A stretch of DNA of 64,000 nucleotides from Pseudobdellovibrionaceae bacterium (lineage in GTDB: Bacteria > Bdellovibrionota > Bdellovibrionia > Bdellovibrionales > UBA1609), in contig CANEZP010000004.1 in NCBI GenBank assembly GCA_947444305.1, forward strand, positions 1 to 64,000, given 5' to 3'. The position numbers and the translations under genes were made by a program. Positions 56,067 to 59,429 of the stretch are shown piece after piece. Within the stretch, counting starts at the first letter, position 1, and the number at the start of each line of letters is the position of its first letter. The notes under the pieces are model-generated. The model was given only the letters and a program-made list of their open reading frames with translations, was not told the origin of the DNA and made no database searches.

Positions 56067-57167
56067 CTAGAAATTAATGCTGGCCGGGTCAAAGGTGACT
56101 TGGATGTTCGCGCTTTGCGGGGGGATGTATTCGCCCTGGAAAATGATGCTATTCGCGGTTTCGTTGTACGCGAAGCCACCGTTGCCGGCCGCATTCGCGC
56201 TCGAGCGGGGAATCTCGGCGCCGTCGACGTAAACGCGGATGCTCGACGGTACGGGATCACCTTCGATGTAGAATTGCGTCGACAACTCGACGATCGACTT
56301 GGAGATGATTTGCAATTCGTTGGCGAAATCGCCGCAGAGATTGCCCTTGATGCCGCCGGTCGCATCGGCCAATTGACCTACACGCACACCGATCTTTTGC
56401 GCACCGTTGAAGATCGAATCTAAACAGCTTTGGCTGTTGATCGAGATCGTGTTCACGCTGTGACGGCGGGCCGCGGGAGTTGATTTCGTGATGCCATCAA
56501 GGAATGAAACATAAGACTCGATCGTGTGAAGGGGACGATCGTACCGCTCGTACTGAGCCGTGCCGTCATGCGAGAAATCATCTTCGTCGGTGACCAAAAC
56601 AACGGCCAAGAAAGCGTTATCGCGAACGAAGCCGGCATTGCCCGTGCTCTCGAGCGCGGTACGCATCGACTGGAGCGAGCGTTCGTCGCCGCGGCCGTTG
56701 ATTCCCTGCATGACGTTCTTCACGAACACCGAGTTCAGGTTGGGCGTGTTCAAATTCAATAACCGGAAGCCCGAGGGATCGTTCCAAGTGCCGTCACGCA
56801 AACGCGCGATTTCAGATTGCGCGCGGCCGCCGTAGTAAGTAGGCATCGGGCTCGACTGATAATAAGGAGTGTAAGCGGGGAGTGCCAAGTAAGCGTCGCT
56901 GGTGACGACACCCATTTGGAAGTCGTAAGCTTTCTCGGTGAATTTCGAGATGAACGAGGGAAAGTTGTTCGCCAAGTTCTGTTGCGAAGTCGCCATCGAG
57001 CCCGAGTTATCAACCACCCAGAGGACGTCGATCTTAGTGACCTGCATCGCCGAGTTTTGCCGGAAGGTCTGTCCTTCGGAGAGCAAAGAGTAAGAGGTTG
57101 ATCCACCTCCGCAAGCGGTCAGCATCGACACGGCGGCGAGAGACAGAATTAGATTCGTGGCCTTCAT
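56067..57167 (-). CDS. VWA-domain lipoprotein
   Basis: 366 residues with a lipobox MLTAC (Cys19). A von Willebrand A domain follows with an intact MIDAS start, Asp53-Asn-Ser55-Gly-Ser57 (WVVDNSGSM), and a later metal residue in VTDEDDFS. VWA proteins bind other proteins through a metal ion. Here it should be anchored in the envelope and could work in adhesion or assembly. The last 80 residues form a beta-rich domain of unknown type. A hairpin lies in its leader, 17 bases above the start. Confidence 0.75.
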   Translation of the reverse strand: MKATNLILSLAAVSMLTACGGGSTSYSLLSEGQTFRQNSAMQVTKIDVLWVVDNSGSMATSQQNLANNFPSFISKFTEKAYDFQMGVVTSDAYLALPAYTPYYQSSPMPTYYGGRAQSEIARLRDGTWNDPSGFRLLNLNTPNLNSVFVKNVMQGINGRGDERSLQSMRTALESTGNAGFVRDNAFLAVVLVTDEDDFSHDGTAQYERYDRPLHTIESYVSFLDGITKSTPAARRHSVNTISINSQSCLDSIFNGAQKIGVRVGQLADATGGIKGNLCGDFANELQIISKSIVELSTQFYIEGDPVPSSIRVYVDGAEIPRSSANAAGNGGFAYNETANSIIFQGEYIPPQSANIQVTFDPASINF

Positions 57168-57205: not shown

Positions 57206-57419
57206 ATTACGTACTGGTTAGGAGCTTACATACCGCAGGCGAACACTTAACTTATCGACCATGGTCGGGGAAACTTTACGAAAGTGCTTAAAAAGGCCTC
57301 GCCGCACCCGAAGTTGGCGAAAACTGTCTGATCATTCGACATTATACAATCCATCAAATCTTACTTCTGGTCAGAGCGCGGGCCGCATTTTACATTGGAT
57401 TCAGGTTCTACATAGGGCC

Positions 57420-57563
57420 GTGGAAGGGGGTGATAGCGTGAACATAAGTCACAGTTACATGCTTAAGTCGGGGGTGGTGATCTCTTAGTTTACTAAGATG
57501 ATCATTGGTCTCCGACTTATACAAACGAAGGGCCAGGGGCATTCCCTCTGGCCTTTTCCTTTT
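57420..57563 (+). ncRNA. Candidate structured RNA with a long hairpin and terminator
   Basis: The window from 57206 to here has no convincing gene. From 57464 to 57519 an almost continuous hairpin of about 25 pairs forms, with arms TTAAGTCGG and CCGACTTA at its base, TCTTAG/CTAAGA at its tip, a TTTA loop and two single bulges. Eleven bases later GGCCAG...CTGGCC is followed by TTTTCCTTTT (57531-57563), a rho-independent terminator. A loose -10 (TACATA, 57409) lies upstream. The 5' end shown is a guess. No known RNA family fits: 6S RNA, tmRNA and SRP RNA were considered and do not match. Confidence 0.45.
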
Positions 57564-57946
57564 CTGGATCCCCTCATTTACATCAAAGTTGCCCACCGAT
57601 TAAGCATTGCTCACACTTTAAGCGACCATGTTGATGCGTCGCGGCCCAATTTCCTAAGCTTTTGTAAACGACGAGTTCCAACGCCGAGGCCGATCCGCCG
57701 GCAGGGCTATAAAATGTGTCGATAAATATATTTAGTTTGTAAAGAGATTCGGCTAAGTCCCGCGCGGGCGTAGGACTTGAAGACGCGGCGGCGATTGGCG
57801 AGGGCGAAACAAGTTTACGCCACCAAATCTCCGCGGCGATGTGACCGCGGCACTGGCCCGAAGTCGTGTTCACGCGCGCGTGGCGGCCCGCTGAAATTTT
57901 TTCTTGTCATCGGGCACGCAACTGTTCACGATCTTAAATGTGGGGG
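57564..57946. other. Gap with no supported gene
   Basis: About 380 bases between the two RNA candidates. The only open frame of any size is on the minus strand (57583-57873, 96 residues with one CxxC). It has no good ribosome site and no family, so it is not called. An AT-rich stretch lies near 57715-57745. I see nothing else. Confidence 0.5.
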
Positions 57947-58006
57947 GGCGATGGAAGGCAGGATACCTGGTTCTCGAAGCAAGGAAGCTTCACATCGCCT
58001 TTTTTA
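57947..58006 (+). ncRNA. Candidate compact three-way-junction RNA with T tract
   Basis: GGCGATG (57947) pairs with CATCGCC (57993-57999) and is followed by six T residues. Inside lie two hairpins: GAA/CAGG with CCTG/TTC around an ATA loop, and GAAGC/GCTTC around AAGGAA. Only two bases (TC) and one base (A) join the helices. This is more structured than an ordinary terminator and resembles a small regulatory RNA or leader end. The transcript start is unknown. It faces the convergent gene that ends at 58050. Confidence 0.4.
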
Positions 58007-58049
58007 AGTCTCGGAATTTCTAAAGTCCCTCCGCTACCAAAAAAACTTA

Positions 58050-59429
58050 TCAATAAAAATCAGAAAACAATAAGTCTTCCGACGGAGCTTGGCGCAAGCG
58101 CACTTCCGGCCGGAGGCGAACGTTTTGCGAATCCACTTCGACGACCTTTCCGAAGCCGGCCGTCTCGTGAATGAGCGTGTTCAAGCGGTGCACGCTCATG
58201 CGTAGACGATGATAATGCTCAGGACTAAATTCACTTTGCCAAAGCAGCTGAATCGCTTCGTCGACCGTGATGCTGGATTTGGAAACTAAGCGCTCGAGTA
58301 ACTGTAAACCGATTTTCTTCTTTGAAAGATCGAGCGTTTTACCCTGGATGATCACCGAGCGCGTACGCGCCGAGAAGTCGATGCGGATTTCCTGCGTTTG
58401 CAGAGCCTGTTTCAAACGATTCGTCCAAAGCGCTTGGCTGCGTGGATCGAGCGCGCGAATAATCAATTGGATTTTGCGGTGAAGCTCGTGGCGCACGACC
58501 GTGTTTTGCTCAAGATTGGCGCTGATGCACAAGAGTCTGAGGTGCGAAGCCCAAGGCAGCTTCGGCGCGAGGCTGGCGAGTTCTTGCAACAGAGCTTGCT
58601 GGCCGAAGGCCCCGGTCACGATCTGGTGCAAAAATTGTTCGTAGGGATCGAGCTCCCTGAATTGACTCGCTTTCTGCAAAACGGCAGCGTTGATCTCTAA
58701 ATCTTGGCTGAGGCAACCCTCGATAAAATCAAAAACCAGGAGCCTTTGTTCTATCTCATCAATACCGGTGTCGACCAATCGCCGGAGCCTTTGCCAAGCG
58801 TGATCGCTGCCGATGAGGCGCAATTCGATAAGCATCAATCCGTGTTCGAGTTCGATGCGCAGGTCTTTAGTTATCTTGTCTTGGGAAACGCTGATCAATT
58901 CGCGGTAATAACCACTCAACTCAGGCAAAGGTTCGAACAAGGCCTGCCAGCGTGATTTCTGAATCAACGCGCGTAAACGGTGAGACGGCTTTTCGGCCCG
59001 CGCGAGGGCGCGATCGTAAAACTGCACGGCGGGAGCGAGCCGTGCTTCTTCTTCGAGAAATTTGCCCACCATGACTTCGCATTCGATCAACGAGTAAGAA
59101 CAAAGCGAAGATTCGAGTTCGACAAGCTTCGCTTCAAGTTTGCCCAAATTCGAGCGGAAGCCTTGCATATCTTGCATCTGGAACTGACAAGCGACGATGT
59201 CCCTGAGCAGATTGACGTTTTCGCCGTACCGCTCGATCGCCGTCTGCATAATTTGGTAGCCGCCGACAACGTTGCCGCGAAAATATTCAATGATCCCTTG
59301 AAAATGCGCCTTCATCCGTAGTTCATGATTCTCGGTCGGATGAATAAGTTTAAGCGCATCCCCGGCTTCATCGAGCCGGCCGTTAAGGATCAATTGATTT
59401 ACGGCAGTGAGCAATTCTTTTACGTTCAT
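58050..59429 (-). CDS. TPR-repeat protein with C-terminal winged helix (regulator)
   Basis: 459 residues without a signal. Residues 1-340 are helical pairs of the TPR/solenoid type (AGDALKLIHPTENHELRMKAHFQGIIEYFRG and onward). The last 100 residues read like an OmpR/PhoB winged helix: TVDEAIQLLWQSEFSPEHYHRLRMSVHRLNTLIHE for the DNA-reading helices, with a beta wing near VVEVDSQNVRLRP. It lacks a receiver domain, so its signal likely comes through the solenoid. It overlaps the upstream secreted-protein gene by 4 bp (ATGA). Confidence 0.7.
   Translation of the reverse strand: MNVKELLTAVNQLILNGRLDEAGDALKLIHPTENHELRMKAHFQGIIEYFRGNVVGGYQIMQTAIERYGENVNLLRDIVACQFQMQDMQGFRSNLGKLEAKLVELESSLCSYSLIECEVMVGKFLEEEARLAPAVQFYDRALARAEKPSHRLRALIQKSRWQALFEPLPELSGYYRELISVSQDKITKDLRIELEHGLMLIELRLIGSDHAWQRLRRLVDTGIDEIEQRLLVFDFIEGCLSQDLEINAAVLQKASQFRELDPYEQFLHQIVTGAFGQQALLQELASLAPKLPWASHLRLLCISANLEQNTVVRHELHRKIQLIIRALDPRSQALWTNRLKQALQTQEIRIDFSARTRSVIIQGKTLDLSKKKIGLQLLERLVSKSSITVDEAIQLLWQSEFSPEHYHRLRMSVHRLNTLIHETAGFGKVVEVDSQNVRLRPEVRLRQAPSEDLLFSDFY

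Follow-up and report, generated by a model that had tools for sequence, protein, structure and literature searches.

What kind of RNA, if any, is produced from a gene-free-looking interval that carries a long hairpin and a terminator is the question raised by positions 57420-57563 of the window (the whole stretch of 64,000 nt of DNA that was analyzed). The original prediction placed here a stand-alone RNA with a 25-pair hairpin and a terminator, with no gene on either strand and no role as a leader. The interval folds far more stably than expected: its minimum free energy (MFE) was -61.8 kcal/mol, in comparison to -38.5 ± 3.8 kcal/mol for dinucleotide shuffles (z = -6.1; 0 of 200), and folding with the predicted 5' end included gave z = -5.35. 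The hairpin is at the predicted place, albeit with 24 rather than 25 pairs in the MFE structure, and the terminator was confirmed. The absence of a gene did not hold, as a conserved micro-ORF with an extended Shine-Dalgarno sequence overlaps the hairpin. The features of the locus, whose predicted transcript is referred to as RNA1, are the following:

57368-57396, plus strand: probable promoter, TGGTCA (57368-57373), 17 nt, TACATT (57391-57396)
57402-57562, plus strand: predicted transcript RNA1, ~160 nt, based on homology with APsRNA2 and on the promoter and terminator positions
57404-57419, plus strand: P1, hairpin at the 5' end (GGUUCU-ACAU-AGGGCC), with covariation
57423-57434, plus strand: SD1, extended Shine-Dalgarno sequence GAAGGGGGTGAT, 12 nt complementary to the 16S rRNA 3' end with G.U pairs allowed
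57438-57488, plus strand: micro-ORF of 16 codons, GTG start, peptide MNISHSYMLKSGVVIS, TAG stop; overlaps P2; frame conserved in relatives
57464-57519, plus strand: P2, 24-pair hairpin in the MFE structure, enclosing SD2 and the stop codon
57470-57474, plus strand: SD2, Shine-Dalgarno-like core GGGGG within the micro-ORF, 11 nt before the stop codon
57527-57563, plus strand: intrinsic terminator, 13-pair stem (57527-57557) followed by a T-rich tail

Transcription of RNA1 probably starts at about 57402, slightly 5' of the interval of the original prediction; the assignment of TGGTCA as the -35 element was made by eye and is weak (4 of 6 positions). The core of SD1 lies 7 nt 5' of the start codon, and SD1 is the sole match to the 12-nt pattern on both strands of the 64 kb. 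RNA1 is flanked by a minus-strand VWA-like lipoprotein gene (56067-57167), which is divergent from it and has many paralogs in relatives, and by a convergent SARP-like gene (58050-59429); both names are our own reading of the sequences, and Pfam gave no match for either neighbor. A search against Rfam covariance models, suggested along with the original prediction, revealed no family at the gathering score in the whole window, including 6S RNA and riboswitches, and a riboswitch identity of RNA1 was rejected on this basis. The low-threshold matches to mir-753 and MicC look like chance. A repeat or mobile-element hairpin was also rejected, as RNA1 is single copy in its own genome and in relatives.

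A plain BLASTN search of the region against 59 relatives returned only noise, and the first homologs were located by synteny, with the VWA-like gene, the SARP-like gene and a second RNA (RNA2) as neighbors. The flanking proteins led to syntenic intergenic regions with the same arrangement in genomes G003 and G007, and looking 5' of RNA2 yielded further RNA1 homologs, which were used for a covariance model limited to the 5' part. This model recovered unseen homologs in other genomes, several of which (G006, G008, and G010) have the homolog beside this VWA-like gene even though the query did not contain it. With a covariance model of 22 sequences, RNA1 was found in 87 of the 141 genomes of the order, in single copy in nearly every positive genome, and phylum-wide in 107 of 369 genomes at E ≤ 1e-3, these E-values being rough due to shortened calibration. 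On inspection, 14 of the 20 matches outside the order, other classes of the phylum included, show the full arrangement; the weak matches in G064 (second match), G231, G356, G298, G327, G360, and G363 were judged false or doubtful. Curation left 101 homologs, which share ancestry, so that the counts given below are not independent tests. The window copy is the only match in its genome (E = 2.1e-9) with model R3, whose training set included the window sequence, but not that of Bdellovibrio bacteriovorus HD100. Since the promoter, the 3' half of P2 and the terminator were left out of the models, they serve as independent checks. Besides the genome of the window, its genus is represented by three genomes, and in two of them (G001 and G002) the covariance search gave no RNA1; genomes without a match may be incomplete or divergent. 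G002 (L067:3790-3840) retains a terminator-like end as well as CCATCGAATCTTACTTCTGGTC, the sequence 5' of RNA1, but RNA1 and the VWA-like gene are missing, apparently by deletion.

In HD100, model R3 matched the plus strand at G072:C1:535189-535270. This position corresponds to APsRNA2, a plus-strand RNA of 134 nt (535,188-535,321) with a transcription start site mapped at 535,188 and an RPKM of 8,869 in the attack phase vs. 204 in the growth phase, a 43-fold difference (Table 2 in Karunker et al., 2013; PMC3627812). The 5' ends of the match and of APsRNA2 agree within 1 nt, the strand is identical, the terminator lies near the mapped end, and the mapped start is 1 nt before P1. By position, strand and covariance score, RNA1 and APsRNA2 belong to one orthologous family; transcription is well supported in HD100 and is presumed by homology for the window copy. 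APsRNA2 has so far been one table row labeled as an attack-phase non-coding RNA, and the available portion of that publication describes for it no ORF, second Shine-Dalgarno sequence, covariation or wider conservation (PMC3627812). Our literature search found no further paper that names it. HD100 also carries a c-di-GMP-I aptamer at the published coordinates of merRNA, which, like APsRNA2, is a stand-alone attack-phase RNA, but unlike merRNA, RNA1 holds no such aptamer according to the Rfam search. Overall, the stand-alone character proposed in the original prediction was borne out: the promoter, the 5' hairpin, the long hairpin and the terminator are kept in relatives, and the HD100 homolog is a transcript mapped by RNA-seq and by its start site.

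The search of relatives for compensatory changes, proposed as a check of the original prediction, showed that the stems are kept and that such changes are present. Upstream of the RNA, a -10-like TAnnnT was found in 89 of 101 homologs, mostly 4-8 nt 5' of P1, vs. 97 of 404 control windows. In P1, 98% of the pair cells in 22 sequences are standard and 19 cells show double changes. The covariation of 0.61 (0.28 ± 0.04 in shuffles, 0 of 500 of which reached it) is destroyed by sliding one column, with the reservation that the alignment used had been fitted to the model and that the first eight sequences alone gave no significant covariation. The apical pairs of P2 around the stop codon also covary (3 of 1000 between-sequence shuffles), and other registers do not exceed the shuffles. 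A simple automatic rule recognized the terminator in 67 of the 87 homologs from the order; several Bdellovibrio copies that fail this rule carry longer, branched terminators. The terminator stem of the Bdellovibrio copies L159, L142, L131, and L153 has a recurring insert like CGATGAGCACCGGAAACGGATCCAGTCGA.

The two Shine-Dalgarno sites differ in their accessibility. SD1 consists of 12 contiguous nt complementary, with G.U pairs, to AUCACCUCCUUU (the 16S rRNA end as read in HD100 and G274) in 90 of 100 homologs, and lies 7-8 nt from the start codon in 85 of 100. Its core is GGGGG in 25 of 100 homologs, the window included, so that pairing to the ribosome is kept and GGA is lost. The predicted pairing probability was 0.86 for SD2, vs. 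0.69 with shuffled downstream sequence (Wilcoxon p = 6e-9), and 0.53 for SD1, vs. 0.69 with shuffled downstream sequence; in the folding model, SD2 is therefore sequestered and SD1 is freer.

The ORF comprises 12-18 codons in nearly all homologs. The SD2 core falls in one frame in 88 of the 93 homologs that have it and lies exactly 11 nt from the stop codon in 81 of them (other spacings in 12); no recognizable SD2 was found in 8 homologs. The distance from the start codon to SD2 varies from 7 to 14 codons and changes by whole codons, and among the order homologs with a GAG GTG-type SD2, 69 of 70 have exactly three codons from the valine to the stop. SD2 is not an ordinary initiation site, since the codon 8 nt downstream is mostly a serine codon (TCT/TCA) and not a start codon. 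Third positions near SD2 are almost frozen (ATA in 44/44 for isoleucine at codon -4, GCG in 52/52, GAG in 65/65), and ATA is a rare codon, used for 3 of 111 isoleucines in five neighboring HD100 genes. In the last codons, the residue changes while the P2 pairs stay. The peptides differ between families (e.g., MNISHSYMLKSGVVIS, MLCEILKPEVIAT, and MQNTLDSTEVKFS), save for a nearly universal E-V-x-x-x-stop ending; DITKAEV is common in family f8. These patterns suggest that selection acts mainly on the nucleotides and the frame, and they fit a requirement for translation of the RNA more than one for the peptide itself, although threonine codons do vary synonymously (ACC/ACA/ACT). From comparison of the homologs, the reading frame and the anatomy are well supported, and the predicted translation of the ORF has strong comparative backing. 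A start-codon hairpin (UGGUUA/UAACCA) was considered as a cause of the frozen codons and was rejected; it explains only a part of them, and inspection of G117 and G083 showed that it is missing there. In three copies that miss the usual SD2 (L119, L120, and L121 in G005, G018, and G025), a segment of the ORF judged by eye is complementary to SD1 (GCATCACC, GGCACC, and GGGCGCC), perhaps another route to the same switch.

The original interpretation is partly supported, in its stand-alone RNA but not in its lack of a gene. The last codons and the stop of a conserved, translated-looking micro-ORF lie inside the hairpin, which points to a tiny mRNA or an RNA of dual function and not simply to a non-coding one. 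Our preferred reading, to which we assign a probability of roughly 45%, is that RNA1 is a stand-alone tiny mRNA with its own promoter and terminator, whose fold depends on whether a ribosome is held at the stop codon, and that it acts as an attack-phase regulator. In this scheme, behind P1 at the 5' end, SD1 would load ribosomes strongly and the 12-18 codons would be translated. When the stop codon is in the A site, the P site would contain the final sense codon, and the anti-Shine-Dalgarno sequence of the 16S rRNA could pair with SD2. The geometry would then equal that of initiation: SD2 precedes the final sense codon by 8 nt and the stop by 11 nt, and SD1 precedes the start codon by 7-8 nt. 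A terminating ribosome held by SD2 would keep P2 open, and once it has gone, P2 would close over SD2 and the stop codon. SD1 is almost a copy of SD2, and the 3' arm of P2 might therefore bind SD1 as well, which could feed back on the following round. RNA1 would thereby switch its fold, stability or exposed surface by its own translation and have a regulatory role in the attack phase, when the cells are free-living. Translation of the ORF, the hold of the ribosome, the switch and any target are what we infer from the conserved arrangement. The fixed spacing of SD2 and the stop could also have arisen from the geometry of the hairpin rather than that of the ribosome, but copies without the apical stem (e.g., G355) keep the 11 nt.

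Several other explanations account for part of this evidence. RNA1 might act in trans as a small RNA, by base pairing with target mRNAs, its ORF being secondary or the RNA being dual-function like SgrS and Spot 42. A stand-alone, structured, terminator-ended, single-copy RNA with an attack-phase induced homolog in HD100 agrees with this, and the conserved SD1 segment, which is rich in purines, and the anti-Shine-Dalgarno-like arm of P2 could both pair with mRNAs; we nevertheless find it doubtful, as the strongest conserved features are those of translation (the Shine-Dalgarno sequence, the frame, and the SD2-stop spacing) and no unpaired conserved seed was noticed outside the Shine-Dalgarno region. 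That RNA1 is a small mRNA made for its micropeptide seems unlikely: the shared DITKAEV and E-V-x-x-x-stop motifs and the synonymous threonine codons speak for it, but the peptides are otherwise unalike between families, and both the frozen third positions and the residue changes that preserve hairpin pairs indicate selection at the nucleotide level. A sponge that sequesters CsrA through GGA motifs is the most improbable explanation, even though CsrA is present in 7 of 7 genomes tested and GGAGG occurs twice in most homologs, since the quarter of homologs with a GGGGG core, among them the window copy, has no GGA in SD1. Likewise, an identity as a CsrA-titrating RNA of the CsrB/RsmZ type was rejected; such RNAs have several conserved GGA motifs in loops, and the GGA of SD1 is not conserved among the homologs.

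The order of elements (a Shine-Dalgarno sequence, a short ORF, a hairpin, and a terminator) also recalls a ribosome-mediated leader or attenuator like those of TnaC or SpeFL, and in HD100 a cheA-like gene on the same strand begins 158 nt downstream of the stop codon of the micro-ORF. We regard such a role as very unlikely. The next gene varies by lineage, being cheA-like in Bdellovibrio and aldehyde-dehydrogenase-like in other genera of f8 (both named by eye), and where a gene was called it is convergent in 6 of 6 genomes of f14, 4 of 5 of f26 and 12 of 21 of f1. No conserved regulated gene lies directly downstream of the homologs, on which ground the attenuator identity was rejected; the original prediction that RNA1 is not a leader agrees with this, and the next large gene in the window is convergent. 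Furthermore, Karunker et al. (2013) had removed candidates whose expression was connected to that of a downstream gene (PMC3627812).

A tiny mRNA whose fold is set by a ribosome held at its stop codon, our preferred reading, can be compared with known systems. SgrS/SgrT, Spot 42/SpfP and RNAIII are dual-function bacterial small RNAs and, like RNA1, are short stand-alone structured transcripts with a small ORF and a terminator; RNA1 shares with this class its own promoter, with a start site mapped in HD100, and an intrinsic terminator. To our knowledge, none of these three systems has been described as having an SD2 placed at a constant distance from the stop. In TnaC, SpeFL and prfB, RNA structure or, in prfB, an internal Shine-Dalgarno site influences a ribosome positioned at a stop codon or close to it. 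Unlike the TnaC and SpeFL leaders, RNA1 has no constant downstream gene, and unlike prfB, its SD2 is at an initiation-like spacing, not at the short spacing of the +1 shift, and no long second frame follows. We know of no other tiny ORF whose start and stop each have a Shine-Dalgarno site in matching geometry.

In a broader form, RNA1 might represent a phylum-wide riboregulator in which the terminating ribosome is caught again by a copy of the Shine-Dalgarno sequence before the stop, and in which occupancy by ribosomes, or the capacity for termination, would itself be the signal that sets fold and activity at the switch between free-living and growth phases; we put this forward only tentatively. 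RNA1 raises a testable question: whether a Shine-Dalgarno sequence can hold a terminating ribosome as a switch. An RNA that had been one row of a table is here a single-copy RNA kept across the order and in other classes of a phylum containing predatory bacteria, and in the model predator HD100 its homolog is far more abundant in the attack phase than in the growth phase.

Downstream of RNA1, RNA2 (57939-58012, plus strand) consists of the near-invariant GTGGGGGGGCGATG, a hairpin with an ANGGA loop and a terminator. Its covariance model found it in single copy in 27 of 47 genomes of the family and 30 of 140 of the order. RNA2 is a candidate CsrA-binding RNA, since it has a CsrA-type loop (GCANGGANGC) and CsrA is present. 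A promoter-like conserved block 5' of RNA2 (57892-57938 of the window; TTTTTTCTTG ... TTCACGATCTTAA) is common to G000, G002, and G003.
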